From NCBI GenBank assembly GCA_036172665.1, contig CM069876.1:7936001-8000000 (forward strand): a DNA stretch of 64,000 bases. The letters are read 5' to 3'. Each line of letters starts with the position of its first letter. Position 1 is the first letter of the stretch. Below, in pieces: positions 6,573 through 62,977 of the stretch. Position numbers and translations under genes: made by a program. The stretch is from Prosopocoilus inquinatus (lineage: Eukaryota; Arthropoda; Insecta; Coleoptera; Lucanidae). The notes below the pieces were generated by a model, which saw nothing but the letters and a program-made list of their open reading frames with translations, was not told where the DNA came from and did no database searches.

Positions 6573-7402
6573 TGGACCAAAGTTAGTATATGCCTGAAGC
6601 TCCATTTAAAATCATCAGAATAGTTGCGTTGTTAGGGTAACGACACCGACTGTGCATGCGCCGTGGATCACGACCATTCAAAGTCCCCACAGTCTAGTCT
6701 GACGTCACGAGAGACCGCACGGACATTTCCACCAGCGCAACCAGGCATTCGGGTCATTCACGAAACATGACTTGCAAGTCGTTACTGACGCTGCAAATTG
6801 CAAATCAATTGCAATGCAGTTACGTTGTCATGGTAACTACACGGTCAAAACAGTGTTTGGGCGGTTTTTGCAAATCAGACTGAAGGGGAAGAGCTAAATT
6901 TAATGGATTATAGATATTAATAGCTTTCGAAAGTCTTGTTCTTCTTGTCACATTGTTTTAAATCAAACCTTTTACTATAAAATCGTAATTCTGTTCAGTT
7001 TTCTTTAAAAAATATTTTTGTATGTATAAAAATTTTCACGCAAATTAACACTTACCAGATTTACTAGTATTAATTATTATATAAAAACACTTTTTAAATA
7101 AAATTAAATAGAATATGGCCTATTTCTATATCATACAAAAGTCGTTGCAGGACGTCAAATCAGTTGCAATTTACAAACCGATAACGACACTTTGCAAATC
7201 TTTTTGAAGAATTACCTTATCAGATAAAATAGCGACATCTTACTATCGCTTTTTGACCTGACATTGCAGTAGGGTAGACAAATTGAAGCGGGATTTGCTC
7301 CTAATAAGTTCCCCATGCAAGGCGGCCATGCTTGCTGTCAAAGCATAATGAAAGATTTTAGAAAAATTTTGTGCAAATCGTTTTTGATTGCAGCGAGAAC
7401 CT

Positions 7403-7465
7403 CGAGCAGCCTCTGGACAGCTGTTTCAGCCCTGCTTGGGGCTTCTTCAGCAGAGACGTAGCTCG
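7403..7465 (-). ncRNA. Type I hammerhead ribozyme motif
   Basis: Read on the minus strand. Stem I is CGAGC/GCTCG plus TCTCTG/CAGAGG with an internal loop. Core CTGAAGA is followed by stem II AGCCC/GGGCT with loop CAAGCA, then GAAA. Stem III is the self-complementary ACAGCTGT, then C. Predicted cleavage lies between 7416 and 7415. The usual G-C pair closing stem II is A-U here. Stem III is too short to be stable alone, as in known dimeric metazoan hammerheads. Confidence 0.75.
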
Positions 7466-7713
7466 ACATTCCCGCTGCAAACAAAAACGACTTGCCCAAT
7501 TTATTCGCATTTGCGATGTAAGAGTGATGAACAGATAAAATAGCGACATCTTACTATCGCTTTTTGACCTGACATTGCAGTAGGGTAGACAAATTGAAGC
7601 GGGATTTGCTCCTAATAAGTTCCCCATGCAAGGCGGCCATGCTTGCTGTCAAAGCATAATGAAAGATTTTAGAAAAATTTTGTGCAAATCGTTTTTGATT
7701 GCAGCGAGAACCT

Positions 7714-7776
7714 CGAGCAGCCTCTGGACAGCTGTTTCAGCCCTGCTTGGGGCTTCTTCAGCAGAGACGTAGCTCG
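7714..7776 (-). ncRNA. Type I hammerhead ribozyme motif, second tandem copy
   Basis: Identical in sequence to the motif 311 bp to its left, with the same core (CTGAAGA, GAAA), stem II and palindromic stem III. Predicted cleavage is between 7727 and 7726. Two copies in direct tandem define the 311-nt monomer. Confidence 0.75.
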
Positions 7777-7794
7777 ACATTCCCGCTGCAAACA

Positions 7795-7839
7795 AAGAAG
7801 CCCCAAGCAGGGCTGAAACAGCTGTCCAGAGGCTGCTCG
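7795..7839 (+). ncRNA. 5'-truncated hammerhead motif at the inversion junction
   Basis: Starts inside the core (AAGA), then has complete stem II, GAAA, ACAGCTGTC and the 3' strand of stem I. The 5' strand of stem I and CTG are lost where the left arm joins (gcaaacaa/agaagcccc). It should not cleave by itself. Confidence 0.6.
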
Positions 7840-8087
7840 AGGTTCTCGCTGCAATCAAAAACGATTTGCACAAAATTTTTCTAAAATCTTTCATTATGCT
7901 TTGACAGCAAGCATGGCCGCCTTGCATGGGGAACTTATTAGGAGCAAATCCCGCTTCAATTTGTCTACCCTACTGCAATGTCAGGTCAAAAAGCGATAGT
8001 AAGATGTCGCTATTTTATCTGTTCATCACTCTTACATCGCAAATGCGAATAAATTGGGCAAGTCGTTTTTGTTTGCAGCGGGAATGT

Positions 8088-8150
8088 CGAGCTACGTCTC
8101 TGCTGAAGAAGCCCCAAGCAGGGCTGAAACAGCTGTCCAGAGGCTGCTCG
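8088..8150 (+). ncRNA. Type I hammerhead ribozyme motif
   Basis: Complete motif on the plus strand: CGAGC-TACG-TCTCTG, CTGAAGA, AGCCC/GGGCT stem II, GAAA, ACAGCTGT, C, CAGAGG-CT-GCTCG. Predicted cleavage is after 8137, exactly 311 nt from the site at 7826. It lies about 50 nt from the element's right end. Confidence 0.75.
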
Positions 8151-8468
8151 AGGTTCTCGCTGCAATCAAAAACGATTTGCACAAAATTTTTCTAAAATAA
8201 TTACCTTATCGGTGTTTACTTGTTTCCATAGTTACACTAATAATGTTCTCATTTGGCTTAGAGTTTAATGAATTAAGTTACCTGAATTTGCAAATTGCAA
8301 ACGGTTGTAGACGCTTATCGTGTTTCGTGAATGACCCCCTCATATATTAACTTTGGGTGTGTACACCCAGCGTGACTTACCGCGAATGTCAAGACTAAAT
8401 CATAAAATTTCGATTTTGAGAGATATTTTATGTTGGGTAAACGACTTCTACGGATATTTTACGTTATT

Positions 8469-10246: not shown

Positions 10247-11274
10247 TTAGTTTCATAAGACTAGTTTTTGTGTATTTTTTCACAAATATTTGTGACAATC
10301 AAGTAACATAAGCATTGGTAAATTAAATCCCCCCGTACAATGGCGAATAAAATCGTTTACCCTTCTTTGCACCCAGATGATACTTCGTAAAACTTCAAAT
10401 AGAATAGATAAGTTGGTAGAAGCACGCCACTGACTAGGGAACACATTCGGCAACATGCGTGGCAACATTCCCAAAAGCCAAGACGTGAGCCTGAGCTTAT
10501 ACTTCTATGTGTAGCATCCCATACATTAGGAAACATGTTGACGGACGTGTTGCTGAGCTTGTTGCAATGACGTTTCGTGAGTAACCCGTATTCACCAGAA
10601 ATGTTACATAACTTCTTTTTACGTAAACAGAACAAATGATAATATAAAGAGATTGTATACTTACGTCAACGCAGAATGCAAAGTTTTTTTAAGGGAGTGC
10701 AAACGTTAAGTTTTACATTAAATCTAATCAAAAATAATCAAATGACTAATGCCTGTTATCTGTAAACGTCTTGGCTATAATCAATGACGCCTTTAAAGTT
10801 GGCCAGGAATTTGATCTTGACTAATACAACGGCAGTGATTTTGTTTGCAATTATACCCGACATCTTTATTTTTTCCCGTACTTTAATAAATACATTTACT
10901 TTTTTTGTTTTCAAACTAGACCTTTCTAAAGAAAAATTTATTTGTTATTATTGCTATTTTCAATAGCTTTTCTGCAGTTTTTTTTTATATAGGGTGATTC
11001 ATAATAAATCCTCAAAATACAACCTGTAAAATGATTAAAAAGTGTATTTAACAGATTAGATGTATCAAAAATTGCTATTAAAACATATAACATTGCGAAA
11101 TACAACATGGCGTTTTATAAATGCAGAAGTAAAACTGTACTATGAATATTTATGATTATTATAAGTTATTGTTGATTTCTTTACGAAGTCCATTACAGTA
11201 ATTATTAAATCAATCACAATTTGAAAATCTGTAGGTATACATAAATATACACAAAAAAGATATCTTAAAGCGAC
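10247..11274. other. Unassigned stretch
   Basis: No gene recognised. Overlapping short frames on the minus strand at 10280-10635 have no family motif. Confidence 0.4.
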
Positions 11275-11408
11275 TAATACCCGATATCTTCATCTCCTGA
11301 TAAATTTATCTGTCAGGTATTATCCTTGGAAACCATTGTATCGATAATAGCTTCCGAGGATATTACCTGGCAGATAAATTTATCAAGAGGTGAAGAAATC
11401 GGGCATTA
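11275..11408. mobile_element. Palindromic MITE, CCCGAT foldback family, copy A
   Basis: The left arm (taatacccgatatcttcatc, then tgataaatttatctg) is repeated inverted on the right (cagataaatttatca, gaagaaatcgggcatta). Centre cttggaaaccattg. It is the same family as 43412-43546, whose centre cttggaaaccattgtaac is nearly identical. Confidence 0.75.
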
Positions 11409-11698
11409 TTCAAAGCAAACTGTCCGTTTTTTATATCAATCTGAAATTGACCGCTCTCTCGGTGTTATACCTCTCTCAGAACCTAATGAAATCTGTTCTC
11501 TTACTTATTTCACTGCGTTTAATAAGAATCACTTCATATACACAGGCTGTCCGGAATACAGTGAAACTACAGGGATCTCGCTTATGATTAGAGTTACAAT
11601 GTTAGTTAAAAGGGGGGAAAAGTTCCGTCCATTAAACTTTGTTAAAGATATGTTCACCATATTTAATATATTCCTTATAGTTTCTGCACAATTTCGGA
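11409..11698. other. Unassigned stretch
   Basis: Single-copy-looking AT-rich DNA. A 126-residue frame (11326-11706) begins inside the MITE and has no recognised domain; I do not call it. Confidence 0.35.
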
Positions 11699-14258: not shown

Positions 14259-15755
14259 TATTTTAAACCTGGTGATGTAGTGGTAGCTTAGGAAGTCCTT
14301 TTAAAAAGTTTGAAAAAGAAGTTATTTCAATTTGTTCAGTAAAGGCCAATACAAATAAAAGAGTTCAAAAACTTCTGAAAAGCATTGGATCGCAACATGC
14401 GATATGTAAGAATGTTTGTTTATGCACCTCTTTGTAATAGACAGTAACAATTATGTTAAAAACGAGTACCTAATCTTCGTTAGATTTTTGCTGAAGTAAT
14501 TAAACATCTTCGTGTTCTAGTTTTGTAACTGCGTTGAAAATGCGTGAAATTATTTTTTAATTATCGCACTAATAGCTGTAGAATAAGTATTGCAAGAGCA
14601 GAAACTATTCCTATTGTAAAAACGGAAAGCAAGAATTAGAGTACGATACGATGAAAAATTTAAATAAATTAGATTGCCTGTACTCACAATAATCTATGGG
14701 TTCAAAATAAGTGATTGAATAACTTCGCTGGCTCTCAATGGAACTATTTTATTAATTGTGTACATTCCAACACGAAACACATGTTTTACAAGGATAATAT
14801 TGAACCTGAATTTCTGCGTCGACTTAAACCGTAAAGACATAAAAGCTCTCGCCTAGTGCAGAAGTTTATTTCGTCTTTTCCTCGTGGTATTAATGAAGAA
14901 ACAAATTTATTTTTGCTGTACACATACAATAATTTTGGTAATCAGCATTGTAAATTGGTAATTTACAAATTAATATGATGTCAGAATTTTCTCTTTTGCG
15001 ATCGCCTTTAGATTGATTTTTTTAAATTTAACTGTTAAAGTACGGATTAACACAAAACTAATCATCATTGAATGCAACACGAACAGAATATTTTAAACTA
15101 TCAAGAACTTACCTAGTTACAAAATTTATCTGCTTTTAAAATTAACAAAAAACACGATACTTGACTTGCCTTAAGTACAATATCTGTGCAAATGGTCATG
15201 GTCTGCGTTTTTATGACTTTTTATCGCCTCGGACGTCGGAGAAAAGTTGAAAACCAAGCTCCGCCGGAACATTTAAGCTGCATTCAGCGACCCTCAAACA
15301 ATTTCTATGAAAAAGTAAAATAATTTCTATCGGTGTTATTATTGCTATCTGACCAACAGTTGTATAACAAATTTTGCTTCTTTTCTTGACCACTATTTGC
15401 GGTTTCAATTAAAGACATAGGTTTAGAGACACGCTTAATTATTTTCAATTCATCTTTCTTATTTTGAAAGGAACATTTATTTGCATCTTTAAATTCTGTA
15501 AAATTCTAAAGATTTTTTTCCAACATAATATACACAAATGACAACTTGACAAAAATTTTGTTGTGTTTAGATAATTACAATGGAAGACACATAGACAAAT
15601 ACATATTATAACTGAACAGTTTGTAATAAGTCATCGATTTATTTCATAGTTTTGGTCCCAAATTGTTAAATATTTGATTGTATTTCTAATCCTTGTTTGA
15701 TTCCTTGGCTGTAAATGTGAGTATCTTTTTTTTAATGTATGACAAATGCCAAGGA
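14259..15755. other. Unassigned stretch
   Basis: AT-rich, with no gene, repeat terminus or RNA gene that I can support. Confidence 0.4.
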
Positions 15756-15757
15756 TA

Positions 15758-17049
15758 CGTGGCCTGATGGAAAAGTTTCTGGAAACGGTATGAAAAAACG
15801 CATATGAAATTTGGTAAACAGTATCATTGTTTTTCGAAGTATTCGCCTTTGACGTTAATACACTTTTGCATACGCTCGAACCAATTTCTAAAGCACGTTT
15901 TCCACTCTAAAGATGGTACCTCAGAAACCAGTGTCCGGAATGTTTCAACTGCTGCTTCAGCCGACGAAAATAGCTCACCACGCATTTTATTTTTGATATT
16001 TGGGAACAAAAAGAAATCATAAGGTGATAAATCAGGTGAATATGGACAATGAGTCATTAATTCAACATTTCTGTTAGACAAAAAATCAACTGTTTGACGG
16101 GCTGAGTGAGAGCTGTCGTTGTCATGATGGAGAATAATTCGTCGATTTCGATTGTTTCTTCTTATTTGATCGATGACTTCCGGCAAACAACTTGTAGTAT
16201 ACCAATCAGCATTCACGGTTTTTCGATCCTCTAAAGCCACGGTTGCTACATGTCCAGTTAAATCAAAGAAACAAGAAATCATTTGCTTCGCAGCACTGCG
16301 TGAACGGACAACTTTTGTTGGTTTTGGTTCCTTTTGAAATACCCAAACGGTAGATTGTTGTTTACTTTCTGGTTCGTACGAATAGATCCACGTTTCGTCA
16401 CCAGTAACGATCTTATAAACTAAATTTGAACGACCTCCATTGAATTTCTTGAGCATTTCTTCGCACCATTTGACACGACCCTGCTTTTGCGCTTCTGTTA
16501 AATTGTGTGGGATCCAAAGACTGCAAAGCTTTCGTACGTTCAAATGATCATGCAAAATCTGGTGTATTGCTTTCATGTCATTGCGTAAGGATGCTTGAAT
16601 CTCACGGTATGTCACATGTCGATCTCGCTCAAGCATTTCACGCACAGCATCTATATTAATGGGAAGAACAGATGTTGATGGGCGACCTTCATGAAATTCG
16701 TCACCGAGAGAGGTACGTCTTTGCTGGAATTCGGCAAACCAATTGTAAACACTGCTCTTTGATGGTGCTTCATCTCCAAAAGCCAAATGAAGCCGATCGA
16801 GGCATTGTTTCAGCGTTAGACCACATTTGAAATCGTAAAAAATCATGACACGAAAATTTTCACGCGAGATTTCCATGTTTACACAAAATTACTTTTTCTC
16901 AAATGCTGTACAGACAAAACTAGTTCACTTGGATAGGAATTGTCAATAGAAGTATGGACGAAAAACGTCAAATTTTTCAAATATGACAGTTGATAAACGC
17001 TAACAATTCTAGACCTACTAGATTCCAGAAAATTTTCCAGCAGCCCGCG
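15758..17049 (-). mobile_element. Mariner transposon, apparently complete, copy 1
   Basis: The left end (cgtggcctgatggaaaagtt, then tctggaa) is matched inverted at the right end (ttccagaaaattttccagca, then gcccgcg). TA dinucleotides flank both ends (15756-15757, 17050-17051), the target duplication of mariners. It encodes an uninterrupted transposase on the minus strand. Two related copies lie at 20094-21380 and 48009-49319. Confidence 0.93.
15824..16876 (-). CDS. Mariner transposase (DD34D), intact, 350 aa
   Basis: Cuts and pastes its own element at TA sites in the nucleus. Residues 1-110 form the paired helix-turn-helix DNA-binding region (SSVYNWFAEFQ at about 41-51; HVTYREIQASL at about 88-98). 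WIPHNL at 121-126 corresponds to the mariner WVPHEL motif. The catalytic triad is D160 (TGDETWIY), D252 (LHHDND) and D287 (YSPDLSPYD), with 34 residues between the last two. The C-terminus has the usual FERMQKCINVKGEYF. Length is normal for mariner (about 345-350 aa). No stop or frameshift is present. One oddity is HDND, where the other copies and most mariners have HDNA. The start chosen gives MEISRENFR, shared by copy 3. Confidence 0.93.
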   Translation of the reverse strand: MEISRENFRVMIFYDFKCGLTLKQCLDRLHLAFGDEAPSKSSVYNWFAEFQQRRTSLGDEFHEGRPSTSVLPINIDAVREMLERDRHVTYREIQASLRNDMKAIHQILHDHLNVRKLCSLWIPHNLTEAQKQGRVKWCEEMLKKFNGGRSNLVYKIVTGDETWIYSYEPESKQQSTVWVFQKEPKPTKVVRSRSAAKQMISCFFDLTGHVATVALEDRKTVNADWYTTSCLPEVIDQIRRNNRNRRIILHHDNDSSHSARQTVDFLSNRNVELMTHCPYSPDLSPYDFFLFPNIKNKMRGELFSSAEAAVETFRTLVSEVPSLEWKTCFRNWFERMQKCINVKGEYFEKQ

Positions 17050-17051
17050 TA

Positions 17052-18208
17052 ATTCAGCCACATGTGACATGTGTAAATGAAAAATACGCTAGTAGAAAAA
17101 AGTATTCAAATATCATTCTTGAATTTTGAAAGTGCTTATTGTTTGCTTGAAATTCGATTCACAAATTAACAAAGTTATTTTAATGTAGACATGGCGCACT
17201 ATTCAGAATTCTTACCGAAGAGTGAAAAAAAATTATTACAGCGCTAAACCATAGTGAAGTGAATGAATGATATAAGTGTTAGGTATAGGAAATACTAAAA
17301 CAGAACGAAAAAAACATTTAATCCTGAATCACACGATAGAAAAATATACTGTTTATTGAAATAAAAAATACTTTGGACAGTTGAAATTAATCCGAAATTG
17401 GAGCTACTACTTGCCAACGACTCGGTAAATAATTAAGTGCAAAAATAAACATACTCTGGAAACCTATAGAGTTCCGAGATTAATTCAAAAACGCATATAA
17501 CCGGGAATGTTTCGTTCATAAAGAGAACTTGGTAGTAAATGTTATATTTAAATAGATCACTGTTAGTAATTTATAACTGCAAAATATAAAAAAAGCTTCT
17601 AAACTTTTGAATGGATTACTTGAATCGCCCTGTATAAGTACCTAACTGTCTTCTTTCCCGTTTCTATTTTTCTGACTTCACGAATTCGAATTTACCATTG
17701 GTGTATTATTTTAATGTATGTATATATACTGTATTTAAACAACAAGTAGTGCAGAGGCTAATATTTCTACGCAATAAAAAATTAAGTTACATTTGACTCA
17801 CCCTGAAACAGGTGACACTAAAGCTTATTATTTATTGTAATTTCGCTGTAGTTCAGATAATACGACGTTTTGTTTGCGATATTTAATAATCACGTTACAT
17901 TTTACGAACGCAATGTATTGGTAACTGTGCGGTCAAGTGAGGTTACGGCTTCTGATCCTGAAAATAGTCCTGAAACGCACGCGCACTTTGAACTCTTCTT
18001 ATTGGAAGAACACTAACAAGATCTATTTAGGAAAATTGTGACATTTAGGACGCGCATTTATTATTCAGAACTATTTTCTGGAAATCGTTTGTAAATTTCA
18101 AGCGAAGAGAAATATCAATAAAGGTTTGATCCTCAAGCTTCGTCGTTCAATTCATCAATTAATCACATAATCAATAAGTAATAAATGAAATTGGCGTCCA
18201 GTTTATTA
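17052..18208. other. Unassigned stretch
   Basis: AT-rich flank of the mariner, with no recognised gene or terminus. Confidence 0.4.
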
Positions 18209-18667: not shown

Positions 18668-18954
18668 TACAAACCATCATACGATTTGGGGTGAAATTTA
18701 CGCGTTAAAAGTCGGGTTCCATTAAAACATGTTTAAAGCAAAGTTCATCAATATGACAAATGACAAACTGTCATTTGGCGTACGTTTTCTAACGTTACTT
18801 TTAATTTTGTTTTATCCTTAATCATTTATTGTTAATTGTTTAAAAAACATCCCATATTGATGAACTTTGCTTTAAACATGTTTTAATGGAACCCGACTTT
18901 TAATGCGTAAATTTCACCCCAAATCGTACGATGGTTTGTAGTTTATCGTTTTGT

Positions 18955-19630: not shown

Positions 19631-20091
19631 TCATTCTTCATCATCTAGATTTATATTAGGAAGATGGGCTATCTCATAATGGCGTTTATAGATTTGGTTT
19701 AAATGACGATTAATGGCTTTGTTTCCTACTTTAACTTGAGCCATAGCGTTGCCAATTAGTTTAACGACGATGCCATTAACACGGGAACCATTGCATAACT
19801 TAACCATAACTTCCTCCCCTTCTTCGAAGTTGCGTTGACGAGCACCATGATAACTATCAACTTGAGATTTCATTTCGACCTGTGCTGGACTCAATTCGGA
19901 AACTGAAACTGGACTAGGCTTAAAAATGCCAAGTGGTGTTCGGGTTTTACATCCAAAGAAAACTTGTGCAGAAGTGCGATCATTCAGTTTATGATGTGGT
20001 GTGTAGTTGTATGTGGCTACTGCTACATCTAGGCTGTTCACAACGCAGTCTAAAGATTTTTTTAAAGTTTGCACCATCCGTTCAGCTAGGC
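19631..20091 (-). pseudogene. Gypsy integrase, C-terminal part (after the mariner insertion)
   Basis: Starts at LAERMVQTLKKSLD, containing the catalytic Glu of the integrase core (AER). It continues through ATYNYTPHHKLNDRTSAQVFFG, the conserved block after the core, and a basic C-terminal domain (EGEEVMVKLCNGSRVNG), and ends LPNINLDDEE before a stop. It is uninterrupted within this segment. Its N-terminal half is at 21383-22262. Confidence 0.88.
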
Positions 20092-20093
20092 TA

Positions 20094-21380
20094 CGTGGGC
20101 TGTTGGAAAAGCTTCTGGAAACGGTATGAAAAAACGCATATGAAATTTGGTAAACGGTATCATTGCTTTTCGAAGTATTCGCCTTTGACGTCAACACACT
20201 TTTGCATACGCTCGAACCAATTTCTAAAGCACGTTTTCCACTCTAAAGATGGTACCTCAGAAACCAGTGTCCGGAATGTTTCAACTGCTGCTTCAGCCGA
20301 CGAAAATCGCTCACCATGCATTTTATTTTTGATATTTGGGAACAAAAAGAAATCATAAGGTGATAAATCAGGTGAATATGGACAATAAGTCATTAATTTA
20401 ACATTTTTGTTGGACAAAAAATCAACTGTTTGACGGGGTGGGTAAGAGCTGGCGTTGTCATGATGAAGAACAATTCGTCGATTTCGATTGTTTCTTCTTA
20501 TTTGATCGATGACTTCCGGCAAACAAATTGTAGTATACCAATCAGCATTCTCGGTTTTTCGATCCTCTAAAGCCACGGTTGCTACATGTCCAGTTAAATC
20601 AAAGAAACAAGAAATCATTTGCTTCGCAGCACTGCGTGAACGGACAACTTTTGTTGGTTTTGGTTCCTTTTGAAATACCCAAACGGTAGATTGTTGTTTA
20701 CTTTCTGGTTCGTACGAATAAATCCACGTTTCGTCACCAGTAACGATCTTATAAACTAAATTTGAACGACCTCCATTGAATTTCTGGAGCATTTCTTCGC
20801 ACCATTTGACACGACCCTGCTTTTGCGCTTCTGTTGTGTGGGATCCAAAGACTGCAAAGCTTTCGTACGTTCAAATGATCATGCAAAATCTGGTGTATTG
20901 CTTTCATGTCAATGCGTAAGGATGCTTGAATCTCACGGTATGTCACATGTCGATCTCGCTCAAGCATTTCACGCACAGCATCTACATTAATGGCAACAAC
21001 AGATGTTGATGGACGACCTTCACGAAATTCATCACTGAGAGAGGTACGTCCACGCTGGAATTCAGCAAACCAATTATAAACACTGCTCTTTGATGGTGCT
21101 TCATCTCCAAAAGCCAAATGAAGCCGATAGAGGCATTGTTTCGGCGTTAGACCACATTTGAAATCTTAAAAAATCACGGCACGAAAATTTTCACGCGGGA
21201 TTTCCATATTCACACAAAATTACTTTTTCTCAAATGCTGTACAAACAAAACTAGTTCACTTGGATAGGAACTCTCAATAGAATTATAGGCGAAAAACGTC
21301 AAATTTTTCAAATATGACAGTTGATAAACGCTAACAATTCTAGACCTACTAGATTCCAGAAAATTTTCCAGCAGCTCACG
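20094..21380 (-). mobile_element. Mariner transposon, copy 2, inserted in gypsy integrase
   Basis: Termini cgtgggctgttggaaaagct and the inverted right end match copy 1. TA is duplicated at 20092-20093 and 21381-21382. It is nearly the same length (1287 bp) as copy 1 and very similar in sequence. Confidence 0.93.
20160..21207 (-). pseudogene. Mariner transposase (DD34D), inactivated
   Basis: Begins MEIPRENFR at 21207, then a stop (TAA in place of the Tyr of IFYDF in copy 1) near residue 14. The helix-turn-helix part is open (to about 20840). A small deletion next to WIPHN (lost bases before ACAGAAGCGC) shifts the frame. The catalytic half is open to 20160 with TGDETWIY, HHDNASS and YSPDLSPYD. 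All three catalytic Asp codons survive, so only two lesions kill it. Confidence 0.9.
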
Positions 21381-21382
21381 TA

Positions 21383-22262
21383 TTTGATTGAGGCTGGCGT
21401 GGTGGATACCTAAGCTGAACAATGTCAAATTCTGAACGGAGTTGCGCAAACTCTGTCGCTGTCTGAACTGAGTCCCGTTGTCTGAAACAATTGTGCTTGG
21501 TGCACCAAAATGTCGGAAAAGAATACGTAGGTACTTGACTGTAGCTGAAGCTGTTGTTGGGGTAATCCAAGCTGCATCAATATAGCGAGAAAAACTATCG
21601 GCCACTACGAGAAAACATTTTCCTTGTATTGGCTCGCCAAAATCCATAGGGATACGATCTCAAGGCTTCTTTGTATCAGGCCAGGGATGTAGAGGTTCCT
21701 TAACAGGGTTGGCTGCGGTGAGAGCACACTGGAAGCAGGATTTTACCATCTCTTCAATCTCGATGGACATTCTGGGCCAATAGGAGTGATGGCGAGCCAA
21801 ATTTTTCATGCATCGGATTCGTGGATGACCACGATGTAAGTGTTTCAGGACAAAATTGCGAAGCTTGTTTGGAATTATGACACGATCACCATCAATTAAT
21901 ATGATACTGTTGGTGATACCATCAGATTTTTTATTTTAGGGAGCGAGTTCTGGATCAGATTTGTCGTCATTCGGCCAACCATTTTTAACTCGATCTATTA
22001 CCGTGTTCAGGGTTCGATCCTGCTGGGTGGCAATGACATTTTCAGTTTCTTCCTCCTGGGCTTCTTGACGAGTTTGTTGAATGAGTCGAGAGAGAGCATC
22101 GGCACGTCCAAAATTCTCTGTTCGGATGTATTCAATGCTGAAATTGTAGCCAATTAAACGAAGTGCCCAACGTCGCAGGCGTGCAGCAGTACGCTTGCTC
22201 AATCCTTTGGTGTTGGAAGTCTTGAACAGTGCAAGTAGTGGGCGATGGTCAGTTTGGAGAAT
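21383..22262 (-). pseudogene. Gypsy RNase H end, zinc finger and N-terminal integrase
   Basis: On the minus strand it begins with the RNase H end LQTDHRPLLALF at the LINE junction. LSKRTAARLRRWALRLIGYNFSIEY and RADALSR follow. The H2C2 zinc finger (LKHLHRGHPRIRCMKNLARHHSYWP, CFQC) comes next, then the integrase core (PMDFGEPIQG, first Asp; VSDNGTQF, second Asp). Lesions include a stop near 21940 (ELAP then TAG... region) and a TGA in place of the Trp before DRIPMDFG at about 21660. It is interrupted at 21381 by the mariner. Confidence 0.85.
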
Positions 22263-26672: not shown

Positions 26673-26756
26673 GTTACTTTTCCTTCTCAGTTATGCCGGA
26701 TATAGAAGACTTCAATGTTTTGATTCCAATTATTTCAATGTTTCAAAATCACTAAT

Positions 26757-26992
26757 GGCCCTTTGCACCATGTCTAGTTAAAAATTAAACCAGGTTTAAC
26801 GGTAAACCTAGTTTGCACCACGGCTTAAACCGTAGTTAAAAACTCGCTAAACAACTCAACGTTAAACCATCACGGAAGGCGGATTAAATTGAGTTGGTTT
26901 AGCGAGTTTTTAACTACGGTTTAAGCCGCGGTGCAAACTGGGTTTACTGTTAAACATGGTTTAATTTTTAACTAGACATGGTGCAAACGGCT
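26757..26992. mobile_element. Palindromic MITE (about 236 bp)
   Basis: Long hairpin: ggccctttgcaccatgtcta, gttaaaaattaaacc, gtttgcacc and cggtttaagcc recur inverted to the right end (ggtgcaaacggct). Arms are over 100 bp with a very short loop. Confidence 0.75.
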
Positions 26993-27834
26993 ATAAATTT
27001 CTTTTACATAAATTGCTCAAAATTTAGAATCATGTAAATACAAAACTATAATAAATGCTCAAAATGTCCTTCCGCTTTTCCTTTTCCACTCGAACGAAAA
27101 GGTTTAGTTGATTTACAATTTCTAATTCTAACAATTTTTTTTCTTAAAATTGCATGATGAGCTTTCATATGGCAAAGCTTGTCGGTGAGCTAATAAATCA
27201 CCCTGTAAAAGATTTAATTTCCTATTAATTCAGTGCGCGTTTAACTTATTCACATTGAACGAAAATAATGATGAATGGGTTAGCTACCTAGACTTATTTT
27301 TTCGTTAATGAAAGTAACCAATTTGAAGATTAATTTCTATGTGTTTTGAATTTGATTTTAAGTATAGGAGTGCATGCCGTTAATTTTTTATAAAGTCGAT
27401 AAGACATTTATTTTTAAATGAAATACATCTTTAACTCATTCACATTAAACGAAGAGAATCTGTACTAACATGAAATAGTATTTACTTTTGATTGAAATGA
27501 TTTTGTATATATGGTCTTTATTCATTCTTATAAGTAGGGTTGTGAATCCTGAAAAGGTAATTTACGGGACACAAGTCAAAAAAGCAGGACCCAAAGAAAT
27601 TTAGTCTATTTTATTTGGCGATGATAAATTAGAGAATCAAATTTAAGCGAAATTTTAAGCGTTCCTTCTTTTAACAAGATTTGAAATTTTTGTCCATTTA
27701 CACCGACGTTGAATTCAGTTAATCTCGAATTAAAGCGTAGAAAATCCTATGTTTAATGTTTAATCAAGGATTAGTTAACAACGACCTCGGTGCAATTTAG
27801 CCTTAATCAAAATAAAATTACATAAGAAGAATCG
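26993..27834. other. Unassigned stretch
   Basis: AT-rich. The phrase aactcattcacattaaacgaa (about 27430) echoes a phrase near 27245 (aacttattcacattgaacga), a small degenerate direct repeat. No gene. Confidence 0.4.
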
Positions 27835-28705: not shown

Positions 28706-28760
28706 CGATCCCTCTGCTGAGGAGCCCCCAAACAGGGTCGAAACAGCTCTCCAAAGGGTG
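28706..28760 (+). ncRNA. Diverged hammerhead motif
   Basis: CCTCTG, CTGAGGA (28717-28723), GCCCC...GGGTC stem II with one mismatch but canonical G-C closing pair. GAAA (28740-28743), CAGCTCTC (stem III palindrome broken at one base) and CAAAGG follow. Clearly related to the 311-nt family motif. No tandem or inverted partner was seen nearby. Confidence 0.5.
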
Positions 28761-29309
28761 CCATTGTAATGAACTGTATTCAAAATAAGTATTTACAAAG
28801 GAGATCTTTCTTATTTTGTGAGACAGAGATAGATTTAATAAATTCCAAATGCAAAGATGAAGTATATCGAGTATTAAAGTATCTACATAGATTATATTTT
28901 TTAATTGTAACACAGAAGGAATCTTACTATGCAAAGTGTTTATTAATACAATTAATGAAACAACGTCGGTGGACATCAATATATGTATTTACAATCAAAA
29001 TAATACATTGAAACACCAAATATAAAAATACAAGCCGTGGAGATCATAATAATTATTAAATCTAATCCGCTTATTAAATACTGAACGAGCGAAATAGGCG
29101 TTCTTGCAGGCGGGGGACAATAGAACGTAATCAGCTGTGTCTATTTGGTAAGTTGAGTTTAGTCCAAAACTTCTATGTAATCGCTGTTAATCATACATTT
29201 GTTTCAAAAAATTGTATGGCTTCACCATTATTTTCTCGTGCTAAAAATTTTGTTCTCGGTGAGGTTACAAAATTCTGTAAATATAAATGAAGAAAATGAT
29301 ATATAAATA

Positions 29310-29697
29310 ATGAACATATAAAATAGCGACATCTTACTATCGCTTTTTGACCTAACATTGCAGTAGGATAGACAAATTGAAGCGGGATTTGCTCCTAATG
29401 AGTCCCCCATGCAAGGCGGCCATGCATGGGGGACTCATTAGGAGCAAATCCCGCTTCAATTTGTCTATCCTACTGCAATGTTAGGTCAAAAAGCGATAGT
29501 AAGATGTCGCTATTTTATATGTTCATCATTCTTACATCGCAATTGCGAATAAATTGGGCAAGTCGTTTTTGGTCTGCAGTGGGAATGTCGAGCTACGTTT
29601 CTGCTGAAGAAGCCCCAAGCAGGGCTGAAACAGCTGTCCAGAGGCTGTTCGAGGTTCTCACTGCAATCAAAAACGATTTGCACAATTTTTTTTTTAA
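29310..29697. mobile_element. Retrozyme-like hammerhead element, copy 2 (inverted, 388 bp)
   Basis: Flanked by a perfect 12-bp duplication GATATATAAATA (29298-29309, 29698-29709). A left minus-sense arm of about 100 bp (atagcgacatcttactatcg ... cccatgcaaggcggcc) is mirrored directly by a right plus-sense arm. The right arm continues through an intact hammerhead to the usual end gatttgcaca plus T/A-rich bases. Confidence 0.82.
29589..29651 (+). ncRNA. Type I hammerhead ribozyme motif
   Basis: CGAGC-TACG-TTTCTG, CTGAAGA, AGCCC/GGGCT stem II, GAAA, ACAGCTGT, C, CAGAGG-CT-GTTCG. Differences from copy 1 (C to T in each stem I strand) change pairs to G-U wobbles and keep stem I paired. Predicted cleavage is after 29638. 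Confidence 0.75.
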
Positions 29698-30275
29698 GAT
29701 ATATAAATACATTATAATGTCAAAACAATAAAAAAAATCGTATTACTTACCCTTCATCAGTTTTTCAACAATTTTTCCTTATTAATATAAAAACATTTTA
29801 GATGATGTGACTGAAAATCTGAAATGTATCTCTTTTAAAAATAGGTAAAATAAATAAAACATTTTACCTCTATATTTTTCACGTGTGTTCTTTGCATTCT
29901 GTATTCTAACTTTAAAATGTAGCATCACTTTCGAGGATTTATCGCAAAGCGATAGTGCAGCCTAACTGCAGCGGTTTTTTCCCTTTTCCTAAAGCAATGT
30001 CACTTTTTAATTAGGAGTAATTTTTAAGTGTGTACTTCTAATAACGAGCCTTCAATAATATAACCACCTCGAGTAGCCTTGGAAACAAAAGTACGTACCG
30101 TAGATTGAACAGTACAGGTTCTGTGATATTCGCAATAACTGTCAAATTAAATATAGTATAGTAAAATAGTACTTTAAATTTCTTCTGGCACTGACCACTT
30201 TCACCAACAAATATGCAAATTTGCAGATATTTAAAAAAAAGTTGAATCTTAATATCCACATTTTAAAATTAACTC

Positions 30276-40784: not shown

Positions 40785-43700
40785 CTATGAAAATTAATAA
40801 CTATTAAGTTTAATCTACTAGTACAAAGTATTATATAATAATATAAATAATATATATATATTATATAAAATATAAAAAATATAATATATATAAATATTAT
40901 AATATAATATAAAATATGAACACCATCTCTTAATTCAAAATTAAATTGAAAATATGTAGAATCGAAGCGCTGAGGAATCATTTAGAGCGCCATCTGTTGA
41001 CCGAAAAGGAAAACATTATTAACTGAATTTTAAAACATCTCATCGCTGACGTTATCACCTCATCTTTTAATTTTAGCAAAAAAATATTGCTATATTTTTT
41101 TCTGATTAGGAATTTATTTTTAAGGAAAACTGAAAACATTCTCTTGGCTAGAAGGGAAGCGATTTTAGTAGAATTTACCGCTATCTTTTGGTCAAAAAGG
41201 AAAACTATTTTAGTCGAATTTAAAAATGTATCATCGATGATATTCTCATCTCATCTGTTGATTTTAGCTTAAAAAATTTAATTGTTTTGAGTGACTTAGG
41301 ACAAGTTTCGTAATGGCGTTAAAGTAGGACTTTTAAATTTAAAATCATTTTCAGACGTCGTAACAAAATAAAACGCATTAATTTATAAGTCAGACTGTAA
41401 CTTTAATTTTATAAAACCTACTTTAGTTCATTTAGGCTGAATTTCATAATCGAACTAAAAATAACTTTAAACAAGAAAGCCACTGTCAGATGTCAAATAA
41501 ACGTGAAAAGACATTTAATTGACACATCAGAATGAGATTTTAGTTTCATGTCTCGTTTAATTTGATTATGAAACCGGCCCTAATTACTTTCAAGGGAGTC
41601 TACGATTCATTCATCCCCAAATGACCCCTAGATGTTCGTTAACCCCCAACCGCCCCCTACATGTTCATCGACCCTTTTTTACTTTTTTTATAGAACTCCC
41701 TTGGGAACCCCGGCTATATACGGTGCCGTATGCTTTAAAAATTGAAAATAGGCAGCATTCTACTCTCGTGCTTTTAGTGATTTTCTGTTGTGATTGATGT
41801 GTTGCCAAATTAAATTGGCAAAAAGAATTTCGTACGATACCTCTAAACTTAAAGTCACTCTCAGATGTCAAAACAAACGTGAAAAGACATTTAATTGACA
41901 CATCAGAAAGTCACTTTCAGTTTAATGTCTCGTTTAATTTGATTATGAAACCGGCCCTAATCATTTTCAAGAAAAACTAAACGAGATTTCAAGGAGTCAT
42001 CATCATCATCATCATCATCATCGTTTAGAGCGCCATCTCTTTCCTAAAAGGAAACACTATCTTAGTCGAATTAAAAAAGAATGTTTTATGGCTGACGCTC
42101 TAGTGTCATATTTTTTTAAAATTTTGTTAATAAAATACAATGAATTTTAAAGGGGATCTCTCTATAATACGTAAAGTAATGAAAGATAATGATAGAAGAT
42201 AAATATTTGTATTGGACTCGAGTCGACGATTCTTACAACCCCAAATGACCCCTAGATGTTCGTTAACCCCCAACCGCCCCCTACATGTTCATCGACGCTT
42301 TTTACTTTTTTATGGAACTCCCTTGGGAACCCCGGCTGTATACGGTGCCGTAATAAATAAAAAATTGAAAATAGGCAACATTCTACACTCCTGCTTTTAG
42401 TGATTTTCTGTTGTGATTGATGTGTTGCCAATTTAAATTGTCAGAAAGAATTTCGTACGAGACCTTTAAGCTTACAGTCACTCTCAGATGTCAAAACAAA
42501 CGTGAAAAGAAATTTAATGTCTCGTTTATTTTGATTATGAAACAGGCCCTAATCATTTTGAAGAAAAACTAAACGAGATGTCAAGGAGTCTTCATCATCA
42601 TCGTTTAGAGCGCCATCTCTTTACTAAAAGGAAAAACTATTTTAGTCGAATTAAAAAAGAATGTTTTATGGCTGACGCTCAAGTATCATATTTTCTCAAT
42701 TTCAATTTTTTTAATAAAATAATAAAATGAGTTTTAAAGGGGGTACTCTGTAATGCGTAAAGTAATGAAAGAGAATGATAGAAGATAAATATTTTTATTG
42801 GACTCGGCACTTGGCAGTCAACGATTCCTTCATCCCCCAACAGGTCCATCGACCCATTTTCCTTTTTTTTGTAGAGACCGTTAGGAACCCCGGCTAGACA
42901 CGGTGCCTGCCCGTGCTTAAAAAATTGAAAATATGCAACCCATTCTACACTCGTGCTTTTAGTGGATTATGAAAACGGAAAATTATTTCTAATGTGATTG
43001 ATGTGTTGCCTATTTCAAAATTTTCAGGGGTGACGAATTAAATTAGCATTTCGTTAGGTACTTTTAAGAAAGTTGTTCTGTTTCTGTAAAGCAGAAATTA
43101 TTTTCGTTTTTTTGATGGGACTACAAAGAATTTGTCATTTATTAATTATTTTCAAGGAAAGCTTTTACTTTCTTATCAAGTAGTTCAAATGTTTCAAAGT
43201 AGATAGCGACACTCTGTGAACACTTAAACATACCTATTACAGCCGTGACGCGCAAACAGGTCTATTTTTAGCATCAAACACGCCACCTTGCGCGTCACAG
43301 AACATGACTGAAGCTACGCGATCATTCCAGAAATTTCGAGGGCTCTGCAATATAAGCCGTACGATCCATGAGTTTAGTTATTAAGTTGGCAAGCGAAGGG
43401 TTGTAATCTCTATTACGCCCGATTTCTTCACCTCCTCATAAATTAATCTGCCAGGTATTATCCTTGGAAACCATTGTAACAATACAAGTTTCCGAGGATA
43501 TTACCTGACAGATAAATCTATCAAGAGGTGAAGAAATCGGGCATTAGTGTTGTAAAGCCGATACATTGCAAGTAAAATATTTCACATAAATTTCATTTCA
43601 ATGAAATATTTCGTAGCATTCAGAAATTTCAAGAAACTTATTTTAAATTTGCCGCGCAGAAAGTGTCTATGCGCATTTGCACATGATTTGAATTTGAAAT

Positions 43701-46700: not shown

Positions 46701-49700
46701 ACAATTGACATTGATACTTGGAAAAATTTGGTTTTCCCTTTTTTTTGGATTCGAAGAGTTGATGATTGCTCCTCAATTTTTTCTCACTCTGGCATACACT
46801 AAAATACGTTAGTTCTTGCTCACATTTCTGTTCTTCTCACAGTCCACGGAGCATGAAAGTTGAAACGTCAATTTTGAAATTTCAAAAATTACATGACAAA
46901 ATAATGAGATTACCTTTTCGATCGCGAAAACTCGATTACTATATTTCCATTTAAGGTGAAACATGTCATGAAAAAATATGTTTCATAAAATTTTTAAATC
47001 ACTAATAATACCTGGGCGATTCAAAATAAGTATCTGACCCGTTAACCGCATGTAGTACACGAAAAAAAAAACAAAAAAATCTATAATATGCATAAGGTGT
47101 TCAGTATGCATAATTTCTAAGATAAATTGTATTGAATATTCAAATATGAATTGGTTGATGACTTACCTCCACCCATTCTAAATAATCCCTCTTCAGACAA
47201 GCCTAACTCTGTCAATGCACATATGCATATTTCTAAAGGATAAGCAATTTTTCTTTTGGTAACTCTCAGATGCTCTTCTAATGATGTTCCAAACACAGGC
47301 TTAATGCAACTGTTTCCTAAAACAAAATACATACAGCTTACAATTTTTATGTTCGGTTAAAGTCATCATAAGAATACCTATTTTAGATTCTACATCAGGA
47401 ATATAGTCATCCAAAGTTTTTAAGGCACTTTCATGATAGGCTCTCTGCAATTTAAGTATCTGCAATATATACTGTGATAGTTCATTTTCTTTTCGCAAGA
47501 CACTGAACATTTCAGCGGCCAGCGCATCTCTGGTCTGTTCGACTTTCATATCGGCTTCTTCCATTTCCAACTTAATGTTCTCTGTTTTCTGTCCATGTTT
47601 GGCAGCCTGTAAATGTTATCATTTAATTATGTTCGTTTTAATTTGAACTTTCCAACGACTTACGTTGTATCTATTCTTTGCCGAGTCCTTGTCCAAAATG
47701 TACTTGTTCAAGTTCCGTTTTAGCTTGATGATGTTGGGTATTTCCTTCTCTAGAACTTCCAAGAGAGGTTTACTTACTAAACTCTCGATTTTTATTTCGT
47801 GTTCTAGTTGTTCGTTTGCAAGATTGTGCTCTGCTTCTCCGCATGATTTCAATATGTACCTGAATAGCTCGCACGCATCTTCAGATTTGCCATTGTGCTC
47901 GTGGCCCTCTATGAACTTTTTTGAGGCTTGATCAAGTAGGGCAATACCCAGCTGATGTTCGGGATATTTTTTCTGTAAAAATTGCAAAATAATTTCTTTT
48001 ATTTAATACGTGCGCTGCTGGAAAATTTTCTGGAATCTAGTAGGTCTAAAATTGTTAGCGTTTATCAACTCTCATATTCGAAAAATTTGACGTTTTTCGC
48101 CTATAATTCTATTGACAGTTTCTATCCAAGTTAACTAATTTTAGTTACCACAGCATTTGAGAAAAAGAAATTTTGTGTAAACATGGAAATCTCGCGTGAA
48201 AATTTTCGTACCATAATTTTTTACGATTTCGAATGTGGTCTAACGCCGAAAGAACGCCTCGATCGGCTTCATTTGGCTTTTGGAGATGAAGCACCATCAA
48301 AGAGCAGTGTTTATAATTGGTTTGCCGAATTCCAGCCTGGACGTACCTCTCTCAGTGACGAATTTCGTGAAGGTCGTCCATCAACATCTGTTGTTGTCAC
48401 TAATGTAGATGCTGTGCGTGAAATGCTTGAGCGAGATCGAAATGTGACATACCGTGAGATTCAAGCATCCTTACGCATTGACACGAAAGCAATACACCAG
48501 ATTTTGCATGTTCATTTGAACGTACGAAAGCTTTGCAGTCGTTGGATCCCACGCAATTTAACAGAAGCACAAAAGCAGAGTCGTGTCAAATGGTGCGAAG
48601 AAATGCTCAAGAAATTCAATGGAGGTCGTTCAAATTTAGCATTTTTTTTTATTTATTTTTTATTTAACATCGTTACTGGTGACGAAACATGGATCTATTC
48701 GTACGAGCTAGAAAGTAAACAACAATCCACCATTTGGGTATTTCAAAATGAACCAAAACCAACAAAAGTTGTCCGTTCACGCAGTGCTGCGAAGCAAATG
48801 ATTGCTTGTTTCTTTGGTTTAACTGGACATGTAGCAACCGTGGCTTTAGAGGATCGAAAAACCGTGAATGCTGATTGGTATACTAGAATATATTTGCCGG
48901 AATTAATCGATCAAATAAGAAGAAACAATCGAAATCGACGAATTATTCTCCATCACGACAACGCCAGCTCTCAGCCCGTCAAACAGTTGATTTTTTGTCC
49001 AACAAAAATGTTGAATGAATGACTCATTGTCCATATTCACCTGATTTTATCAGCTAAGGATTTCTTCTTGTTCTCAAATATCAAAAATAAAATGCGTGGT
49101 GAGCGATTTTCGTCGGCTGAAGCAGCGGTTGAAACATTCCGGACACTGGTTTCTGAGGTACCATCTTTAGAGTGGAAAACGTGCTTTAGAAATTGGTTCG
49201 AGCGTATGCAAAAGTATATTGACGTCAAAGGCGAATACTTCGAAAAACAATGATACCGTATACCAAATTTCATATGCGGTTTTTCATACCGTTTCCAGAA
49301 ACTTTTCCAGCAGCCCACGTACATATACTGCGAAAAGTAAATTTATTGAATGAATTTTTGTGTACCAAAGAGTTTTTTATATTTTAAACATTTGACTCAA
49401 AGAAATTTACTTAACCGATAAACACATACACAAGTTAGTAACTTTGTTTACTGCCGTTAAGATTAGATTACTAGTTTTATCACACACGTTCTTTGGTCAC
49501 TTTAAATCTACCTCTGAAAATGTTATCAATTGAAAAATTACTGAAAATTATTATATTCTGAAAAATTATTCAACTCTTGCAAGTGTAATAACAATTATTA
49601 GTTACATAAGCTAAATTAAAAAAAAAAACACATACATCATTAAGCTCGTTAAATACCGGTCTAATTAAAACTTTCATCCAATTACTCGACGTAACTTAGA

Positions 49701-50644: not shown

Positions 50645-50684
50645 ATAATTGAAATTAACCTCCGCCCAGAATAATTTTTATATC

Positions 50685-50727
50685 CGTAGATACGTATTTC
50701 GGCAGCTAAGCTGCCATCTTCAGAACG
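50685..50727 (-). ncRNA. Hammerhead-like motif, left arm
   Basis: Minus strand: CTGAAGA, one extra T, perfect stem II GGCAGC/GCTGCC with loop TTA, GAAA, 8-nt palindrome ATACGTAT, C, TACG. Stem I pairs CGT with ACG next to a mismatch. Predicted cleavage is between 50689 and 50688. Confidence 0.5.
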
Positions 50728-51307
50728 CTACCAACTTAAAAGCAGTAAAAAATGTCTAAAAACAACCTAATCACACTGACTAAATCATAAAAATGTTAAC
50801 CCTACCAACAATCTAATCATCCTAAAAGATATATATGTACAAATGTAAGTAAATATAAATTAATATGTGAAAATTTAAAATAAACTATATTTGTTATGTA
50901 TAAATCGGAAAAAAAAAATTATGTGAACACCTAAAATTAACTGTCAGAAAACCTTACAAATAAGAGCTAACCAAACAACACGGAAATGCGGAAATAAATA
51001 GTCCAAAGACCCCGAAAAAACTTCTTATTCTAACGTATAAATAAGTATATAATTCCCTGTTATTTGATACTCTTATTTGTAAGGTTTTCTGACATTTAAT
51101 TTTAGGTCTTCACATATTTTTTTTTTCCGGTTTATACATAACATATATAGTTTATTTAAGATTTTTACATATTAATTTATATTTTCTTACATTTAGACGT
51201 ATATATCTTTTAGGATGATTAGATTGTTGTTAGGTTTAACATTTTTATGATTTTGTCAGTGTGATTAGGTTGTTTTTAGACATTTTTTAGTGCTTTTAAG
51301 TTGCTAG

Positions 51308-51350
51308 CGTACTGAAGATGACAGCTTAGCTGCCGAAATACGTATCTACG
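51308..51350 (+). ncRNA. Hammerhead-like motif, right arm
   Basis: CGTA (5' stem I), CTGAAGA (51312-51318), extra T, stem II GACAGC/GCTGCC (one mismatch), GAAA, palindrome ATACGTAT, C at 51346, TACG (3' stem I, 4 bp). Stem I is complete here and stem II is better in the left arm. Confidence 0.5.
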
Positions 51351-51390
51351 GATATAAAAATTATTGTGAGCGGAGGTTAATTTCAATTAT

Positions 51391-52487: not shown

Positions 52488-53505
52488 TTAAGGTTTCATT
52501 CGCACGAACGTTTTCTAAAAGGGTATAGGACAATTCGTCGTCGTCGATTAGCTATCGTTAATTCATCGTCGTCGATTCGCCGTAGGTACGATTCGCCGTC
52601 GGTAAATTCGCCGTCAGCGATTAAAGTTTTAAATCCAGATAGATTCCAACTAATAATATACGATAATTATACGTAAATAAAATAAAAAAGCTAGCATATT
52701 TAATGGAAAATAAAATAATTTCTCATTAATTAAATGTGATACATTGATAAAGAAACAGATAAAAATTTCTGTTCTTGCAGAAAGTATTTTTTATTCTGCA
52801 GCGTGTTCGTAAAATCCCTCCAATTTTTCCTTTTTATATTTCTGAGTTTGCTCAAAATCATATTAATTTTCATATAAATCAAAATCACTATACCCACATC
52901 AAAAGTTAACTGTTTTCGAAATATTGATTCACGAAAGCTCGTCGTTTAAAATTATAAATAAAAAAAATGGGAGTTCCAATAAAAAAAAAAATTATAATTA
53001 TGATTATGTGTACCAAAGCACAGTTGTTCGTAATTTTGTGTCTTAGCATGGTTGTACTGTAATTAGGAATTTATTTGAAATGGAAAAGTAATACTGAAGT
53101 CTATTTTAATTTACTTGGAACGTACTGAAATTAGTTATTTTCATTCAATTCGTAGGTATAACTTGGATGTTATCTAAAATTGTCAGAAAGTGTTTTAAAG
53201 CTCATCAAGCTAAATAAAGCAGTAACATGCGACGGCGAATTGGGCGGAAAGTAAATTGGGTTGACGGCGAATTGGTTCTATGACGAATTGGCAACGGTGA
53301 ATCGTCCCATCCCCTTTCTGAAACATTCAATCACTCGATTTTTTTCGTGAATAGATTTAATATTTGTGTTCATATTGTAGCGGTCGTTAAAAAAGCGCTT
53401 CAATGAACGCAGTTATTTAAACTCGTAAATTCTAGTTACGACGCACCGTTAGAAAAAGCGAGTGCTTTAACTTTTTAGAAAACGTTCGTGCGAACGAGGC
53501 CTTAA
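52488..53505. mobile_element. Terminal-inverted-repeat element flanked by TTAA
   Basis: Left ttaaggtttcattcgcacga (acgttttctaaaa) and inverted right ttttagaaaacgttcgtgcg (aacgaggccttaa). TTAA at both edges (52488-52491, 53502-53505) hints at a piggyBac-type target. The interior has repeated attcgccgtc / gacggcgaatt words near each end (52550-52620, 53225-53300). No transposase. Another left-type end (aaggtttcgttcgcacgag) starts at about 53515. Confidence 0.6.
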
Positions 53506-53889
53506 ACTCCGCCTAAGGTTTCGTTCGCACGAGTTTTTTAAAACGCTTAAGCGCTCTCTTTTTCTAACGTGATGAATAGAACTCATCCGTTTTAACAGAT
53601 GCGTTGAACGACTGCTGCCAACGCAGAGAAAAACAAATGAATAATGGTCTTAAGAAAATAAAATAAACATAACATATCTACTGTAAAAGTACAGGTAAAC
53701 ATCGAAGTCATTTTCAATATTGTATAAAAGTACACTTTTTAGTATTTTTTTTTTGGATAAAATTCAAGAAAAACTATAAGAAAATAGTGATTATCACCAT
53801 AGTATTCGTTAAAATAAATGAATAAATAAATAATTAATTAACTAGAGTAGGTAATTGTAGTATAAGAAGACAACAATCACAGTTAGATA

Positions 53890-62280: not shown

Positions 62281-62914
62281 TATACCGGGTGGAAAGTTTC
62301 AAACCCGAACACAGCAAAGTTCCATTGAGAACTATGTTTCTATAGATTACTGCTCGTCATTTAAAGATACAAAAATGGTAATGGTATTAAATGAAAGATA
62401 AAATTAAGGCCAATGTTATCGTGTTAAATTTATTCCTATTATGTAAATACTTTTGAAATAGAAATTAAATTTTTAAATTTCAAATGAAAAGTGTAGTCGC
62501 CTTAGTATGTCAGATTTGAAGTTTGCAATTCAATAACCAGAATTTTGTACAATATGCTTCTTATTCATAATAAAATTCCATTCATCTGTGTAGCATACTG
62601 ACGATGAAAAACTGTCAGGATTTATTTCTTTGCTCCTGTATTGCTTCACAAAATACTTTCCTACTATTTTTGTTAATTTCAATACAATGTTGATGGCAAC
62701 TGGATTTATGGAATTGATATTTTTTTTTTAATTCTTTACAGTTGTGTGTTACTTATTTTTGAACAGTGTGAAACTTATTTAATTCTTAGTACAATTGAAT
62801 TTAAAACTGATTTAGTATCGACATGTGTCGGTATTGATTGCCCGTGGCATCATTTCAAGGTTATTGATATTAGAAAAATTTTGTGCAAATCGTTTTTGAT
62901 TGCAGCGAAAACCT

Positions 62915-62977
62915 CGAGCAGCCTCTGTACAGCTGCTTCAGCCCTGCTTGGGGCTTCTTCAGCAGAGACGTAGCTCG
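62915..62977 (-). ncRNA. Hammerhead ribozyme motif, mutated core
   Basis: Stem I, CTGAAGA and stem II are as in copy 1, but GAAA is GAAG and the base before the cleavage point is A (CTGTA). The GAAG change should weaken or abolish cleavage. Predicted site is between 62928 and 62927. Confidence 0.65.

Follow-up and report, generated by a model that had tools for sequence, protein, structure and literature searches.

In the window (the whole 64,000-nucleotide stretch of Prosopocoilus inquinatus DNA analyzed here), positions 7222-8198 are occupied by an insertion, designated A, in which 1.84 minus-strand monomers are followed by 1.30 plus-strand monomers, at 311 nt per unit and with identical units. 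The original prediction of 311-nt monomers in tandem and inverted order at 7222-8199 was borne out by repeat comparison: two direct repeats were spaced by 311 nt (265 nt at 100% identity, 7221-7485 and 7532-7796; 93 nt, 7795-7887 and 8106-8198), and an inverted repeat extended over 404 nt at 100% identity (7355-7758 and 7795-8198). The minus arm (7222-7796) and the plus arm (7795-8198) meet head to head at 7795-7796, where they overlap by 2 nt, and one 12-bp target-site duplication, AATTACCTTATC, encloses both of them (7210-7221 on the left and 8199-8210 on the right), matching the flanking direct repeat that had been predicted. The left edge of the insertion is a start at monomer position ~195-197 and the right edge a start at ~61, belonging respectively to the end sites E2 and E1 defined below.

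All four hammerhead cores were found where they had been placed: i) two complete ones on the minus strand, at 7409-7457 and 7720-7768, with stem limits read off the sequence; ii) a complete one on the plus strand at 8096-8144; iii) a 5'-truncated one on the plus strand at 7795-7833, without the core start and the 5' strand of stem I. A descriptor (CTGANGA, stem II, GAA, A-U at 15.1/16.1 and a stem I of at least 5 bp) matched the three complete cores and missed the truncated one, which was recognized from its sequence. The predicted cleavage positions after 7416 and 7727 (minus) and after 8137 (plus) were upheld by a C3-to-C17 offset of 34 nt, while the fourth proposed site, 7826 (plus), retains the cleavage triplet only and should not cleave in cis because its core is cut off at 7795. 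Descriptor matches in the window (given by C3) lay at 7450(-), 7761(-) and 8103(+), at 29604(+) in insertion B and at 63273(-) in insertion C, and none arose in 60 dinucleotide shuffles of the window. The core consists of CUGAAGA, stem II (AGCCC/GGGCU), GAAA and stem III, ACAGCUGU, with cleavage predicted after C8137; stem III in the core at 8096-8144 is a palindrome, as had been read earlier, and within one molecule forms 2 bp plus an AGCU tetraloop.

Stem I is extended into a rod of ~45 nt on each side, so that the hammerhead sits in a rod-like stem (8054-8184, plus; -77.6 kcal/mol, z -9.18), and the monomer folded as a circle reached -117.4 kcal/mol (z -8.1). Rod pair 22-253 was GC in 36, AT in 20 and GT in one when counted by insertion, and this two-sided change may be a single event common to a subfamily. 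The covariance search that had been proposed as a check came out against the prediction: Rfam models returned nothing above gathering score in the whole window, hammerheads included, and at E-values up to 10 in 7100-8300 the sole hammerhead match came from HH9, which scored 16.3 bits versus 52 on one complete core out of three. Because the descriptor finds the motif, we took this sub-threshold score as a limit of the Rfam models; the other low-threshold matches, mostly miRNA models lying on the palindrome, were rejected as chance.

Two more insertions, which the original prediction did not list, lie in the window at 29310-29697 (B) and 62870-63585 (C), both with minus arm before plus arm and each with its own 12-13-bp duplication. 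Insertion B is flanked by GATATATAAATA (29298-29309 on the left, 29698-29709 on the right); its minus arm (29310-29428) starts at E2 and its plus arm (29408-29697, right edge taken from the duplication) at E1, the latter bearing one hammerhead (C3 at 29604), and the joint is a 21-nt overlap of the two arms. Insertion C is flanked by GTTATTGATATTA (62860-62872 and 63583-63595); here the minus arm (62870-63432; 1.8 monomers, one descriptor hammerhead with C3 at 63273) starts at E1 and the plus arm (63426-63585) at E2, with an overlap of 7 nt. Moreover, an old fragment (79% identity; 58552-58643, minus) comprises the E1-E2 half of the monomer with one edge at E2, and a degraded relative of the hammerhead core (82%) was found at 28712-28761 (plus).

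The window also holds further self-inverted stretches (11272-11411, 18668-18940, 26755-26994, 43417-43546 and 53447-53569), possibly two-armed insertions as well. At 50645-51390 there is a 746-bp imperfect palindrome (87%) with hammerhead motifs of the type of Penelope-like elements (PLEs) on both strands (TACTGAAGATGACAGCTTAGCTGCCGAAATACGTATCTA at 51310); this is probably a PLE of a different family, inserted as pLTR only. In addition, three mariner-like copies (family assigned by eye) with long transposase-like frames, 92-95% alike, are located at 15752-17054, 20088-21385 and 48005-49321.

The genome-wide search for further copies that had been suggested found them in abundance: in the genome (650 Mb, 173 contigs) the 44-nt core occurs 10,228 times in exact form (5068 + 5160), and arms reach up to ~7 turns, while the reversed pattern of the 44-nt core, used as control, had no copy in the genome. 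Among 100 places listed of the 10,228, taken in genome order, neighboring cores within 1.5 kb were minus-plus in 23 cases and plus-minus in none. Insertions were then scored in two samples. The first comprised 36 loci around places from a separate listing (40 scored of 586 candidates) together with A, B and C, and favors young copies; arms below 85% identity, shorter than ~46 nt or more than 60 nt from the cluster of the largest arm were dropped, and copies set aside, mostly older, occurred at L013, L015, L019, L028, L041 and L043 (at L041 the older arms abut the scored insertion). The second comprised the first 20 core clusters in genome order on contig C1, with arms below 80% identity or ~36 nt dropped (~46 nt in the final count). 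By hand, we added the short arms of L035, L072 and L077, which exact matches revealed although they fell under the aligner's cut-off; at L087, a plus fragment of 46 nt situated 22 nt to the left of the insertion, the only plus-then-minus neighbor among the scored loci, was treated as a separate, older copy and likewise excluded by hand. One locus, L014 (G000:C6:43467500-43471200), with E1 on both sides, was left out of all counts, because the host sequence on one side mirrors that on the other over 1536 of 1536 bases; it must be an assembly fold-back or artefact, or an inverted duplication.

In the resulting set of 58 insertions, 49 had a minus arm and then a plus arm, so that the RNA 3' sides face outward, and nine had one scored arm (L013, L018, L022, L030, L031, L034, L074, L083 and L084, of which L083 shows ~13 nt of a second arm). 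The outer ends of the 49 two-armed insertions fell at two monomer sites, numbered from the cleavage site: E1 (range 49-71, median 60.5) and E2 (range 191-211, median 198.5). E1 stood on one side and E2 on the other in 48 of the 49 (p ~1e-13 under independent even choice), with E1 left and E2 right in 34, the reverse in 14, and E2 on both sides in one (L090), which is without a clear duplication. The excess of E1 on the left (34 of 48) had a nominal p of 0.006, although contig orientation should be arbitrary. The exact flank repeat was 12 bp, its mode, in 26 of the 49 and at least 9 bp in 44, a length reached by 2.3% of mismatched flanks used as control. Neither end coincides with the hammerhead cleavage site; therefore reverse transcription was not begun at the 3' end of a cleaved monomer. 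In the predicted circle, a single loop contained unpaired bases of both the E1 and the E2 window in 33 of 36 full units, which represent 21 distinct sequences, most of them very alike; a rotation control on copy A, under a stricter rule (half of each window unpaired), gave the same-loop condition at 22 of 311 positions.

Joints were scored in the 46 two-armed insertions for which the aligner found both arms. The arms overlapped by 2-5 nt in 23 of them, by 0, 1 or 7-22 nt in 12, and by more than 100 nt, inside the rod, in six (L011, L017, L028, L038, L044 and L085), the rod being a stretch over which the two antisense cDNAs could pair at length; the remaining five had 1-220 unmatched bases between the arms (220 in L073, ~20 in L080 and L091). 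An empty site was also found: a paralogous stretch at L080 matches the flanks of the L081 insertion in 181 of 220 columns, with several gaps, and has a single copy of the duplicated ATGYATTTTTTTAG.

The arms of one insertion resemble each other as turns of one arm do. At 13 common polymorphic sites, agreement was 97.2% (1159/1192) between the two arms of an insertion, 97.9% (1271/1298) between turns of one arm and 70.7% between different insertions, the arm counts including arms that overlap in the rod. For example, all nine units of L037 (seven minus, two plus) carry C at position 140, an allele present in 10 of 55 insertions. These shared template variants suggest that one RNA, or sister RNAs, probably served as template for the two arms. 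Where both arms cover a position, 108 rare alleles were counted after omission of 14 loci (one arm, rod overlap or great age): seven were in both arms, one of them (copy B, position 84) adjoining the joint, and 101, which look like later mutations, were in one; the argument for one RNA therefore rests on few sites. The longest arms ran to ~7 turns (2096 nt in L013, with one difference in 2097 columns, and 2202 nt in L037), which calls for a circle or a long multimer as template; a linear RNA of many units would do equally well. In L037, the long minus arm contains, ~1500 nt in, a stretch of ~45 nt that is scrambled relative to the monomer and where short plus-strand matches are listed, possibly a small flip of the rod tip.

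The same genome carries a PLE with an open RT/GIY-YIG frame of 788 aa. A whole insertion of it (L092), flanked by GGTAACATTAACA, consists of a short minus arm and then a plus copy with a hammerhead-bearing pLTR, the 788-aa open frame (matching RVT_1 and GIY-YIG in the part from the ATG), the 3' pLTR and a tail. Among 150 scored GIY-YIG matches of 2232 candidates, neighbors within 5 kb were minus-plus in 46 cases and plus-minus in none. We scored the outer ends of 16 two-sided PLE insertions, comprising L045, L054, L057, L092 and 12 compact pairs selected among the 47 that lie within 10 kb: all 16 started at different sites on the two sides, one tail-less and the other tailed, the two arrangements by side numbering 10 and six. 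As the PLE query stops at the end of the tail, any end located past that point would be scored as tailed. Loci with one side only (L048, L051, L052, L053, L058 and L059) were uncounted, as were the inner inverted copies of L056, which both read beyond the tail and are not outer ends. Flank repeats were 10-16 bp (mode 13), the start sites were 46 and 85 nt downstream of the cleavage site in the PLE's hammerhead, and the two arms cover the same 3' stretch, which was thus copied twice. Outside the 58, a retrozyme insertion with minus then plus arm (L046; 95-96% identity) was seen ~400 bp from a GIY-YIG fragment.

We found little to link the two elements by sequence: pairwise alignment of the PLE and the 311-nt unit gave little beyond the hammerhead core, and homology of the start sites was at most suggestive, PLE site 1 ranking E1 and E2 high at some window sizes only and site 2 not doing so. 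The fold of the PLE start region was no better than shuffles (z 0.51). The two starts are ~137 nt apart in the 311-nt unit (~174 nt the other way round the circle) versus 39 nt in the PLE.

The anole PLE protein, predicted to be a dimer, is described as cleaving and extending both strands and using two internal start sites, the stretch between which makes up the tail (PMC11167929). Its main start lies 111-118 nt into the ORF and the hammerhead cut 26 nt in, i.e., 85-92 nt before the start. In that system, hammerhead mutants were without effect on insertion in vitro, and no reads were found that stop at the cleavage site; therefore the hammerhead may serve RNA processing only. The start site in vitro was alike on both strands (PMC11167929), which does not contradict a rule that acts per insertion with interchangeable sides.

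Several features support the original assignment of the element to the metazoan retrozymes: the type I hammerhead, the tandem 311-nt units, a GC content of 44.4%, duplications longer than 4 bp and the presence of PLEs. In PMC7229834, metazoan (non-LTR) retrozymes are described by the same traits (type I hammerhead, 170-400 nt, tandem copies, low GC, duplications >4 bp, coexisting PLEs), and PLEs are named there as a strong candidate for their mover. That account differs in presenting tandem arrays (the words "inverted" and "head-to-head" are absent from its main text), whereas in our sample two arms with two fixed ends are the rule. Plant LTR retrozymes are likewise non-autonomous hammerhead retroelements; they are reported to have hammerheads within LTRs, a primer binding site, a polypurine tract and 4-bp duplications (PMC4918200), the hammerheads being of type III (PMC7229834), in contrast to the type I hammerheads and ~12-bp duplications found here, with no LTR-like order among the arms scored. 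Insertions A and B have no stop-to-stop frame of at least 110 aa, and a frame of 135 aa runs across insertion C (63124-63531); the 311-nt unit and the lack of such a frame in A or B ruled out the element being a PLE itself. Its likeness to PLEs with tail and inverted pLTR consists in head-to-head arms, short duplications, the tail on one of the inverted pLTRs (noted in PMC3846280), a hammerhead upstream of the starts, two internal starts and the extension of both DNA strands (PMC3846280; PMC11167929). Unlike PLEs, the retrozyme encodes no RT or endonuclease, and the start sites share little sequence. The portions consulted of PMC7229834, PMC11167929, PMC3846280, PMC7761336 and PMC4918200 contain no statement of a one-site-per-side rule or of inverted retrozyme insertions; our literature searches on dimeric PLE enzymes, on twin priming by PLEs and on tailed inverted pLTRs listed no further paper on this point, although one may exist.

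The original prediction offered no reason for the inverted order and mentioned PLE mobilization as background. Since inverted order is the rule in our sample and the PLE shows the same pattern, we tie this order to PLE integration. Moreover, topology, duplication length and the rule of one site per side are common to the retrozyme and the PLE, for which a shared integration machinery is the simplest explanation. We are therefore fairly confident in assigning the element to the metazoan retrozymes as a non-autonomous member, and in ascribing the integration of its RNA to PLE-type machinery that primes on both target strands from two RNA sites; the resident PLE is likely the element's helper, judging from the shared scar. 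In the proposed course of events, multimeric transcripts would self-cleave and circularize; one RNA would be bound by a PLE protein with RT and GIY-YIG, probably dimeric, which would cut the target with a stagger and leave 12-nt 3' overhangs; and the two DNA 3' ends would be extended, one from E1 and one from E2, sites predicted to lie in AU-rich, single-stranded linkers that belong to one junction. From there, each RT would go round the RNA for anything from a fraction of a turn to ~7 turns, the two antisense cDNAs would be joined where they anneal via short or rod-derived self-complementarity, and repair would fill in the second strands.

The strongest alternative, which we consider unlikely, assigns a separate RNA molecule to each enzyme subunit, each with a built-in choice of site. 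It agrees with the double copying of the 3' stretch in the PLE arms and with the report that axolotl hammerheads with a weak stem III act as dimers (PMC7229834). Two free RNAs lacking such a choice would allow E1/E1 and E2/E2 insertions, of which one was seen in 49; the template variants and seven rare alleles shared by the arms also speak against separate molecules, though RNAs from one source locus would share them too.

L1 elements produce twin-primed inversions of the same minus/plus topology, and a LINE of this genome could have served as helper in such a manner; the open RT frames in the window do look LINE-like by eye. In L1, however, inversions are a minority and the second start is not known to be fixed, whereas here both starts are fixed and 49 of the 58 scored insertions are two-armed, and it is the resident PLE that shows the pattern of two fixed starts. 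LINE-driven twin priming thus appears improbable to us.

Less likely still in our estimation is self-priming, in which a single cDNA begun at one DNA end would turn back and serve as its own template, the palindrome being a hairpin copy. This was the explanation offered for rotifer PLEs, in which head-to-head palindromes are common and were ascribed to self-priming on an antisense template (PMC3846280), and it would suit the arms that meet or overlap in the self-complementary rod (six of 39 loci of the first sample, and L085 of the second). It predicts like outer ends, however, and the ends differed in 48 of 49 retrozyme and 16 of 16 PLE insertions; arm lengths within one insertion were, moreover, often very unequal. 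Finally, assembly fold-backs or later rearrangement of separate insertions, exemplified by L014 with its mirrored host flanks (1536/1536 bases), can be set aside almost entirely, as the test for mirrored flanks was negative in all 58 insertions retained, both arms lie within a single flank repeat of 9 bp or more in 44 of 49, and the one empty paralogue (L080) has a single copy of the duplication.

Integration by PLE-type machinery from two RNA sites may be framed more strictly as obligate dual target priming: one RNA, a circle in the case of retrozymes, would offer two fixed starts in one junction to a dimeric enzyme that extends both DNA 3' ends simultaneously, so that two RTs chase each other round the same circle, and retrozymes would be parasites that rebuilt the platform with little shared sequence. 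We hold the chances of this stricter version to be about even. Because the element shares a quantitative scar with an autonomous PLE of this genome, the question of which enzyme moves animal retrozymes can be tested directly. Furthermore, a rule of one start per strand would account for the inverted repeats and the one-sided tail of PLEs, and suggests that PLEs may close their insertions without conventional second-strand priming.
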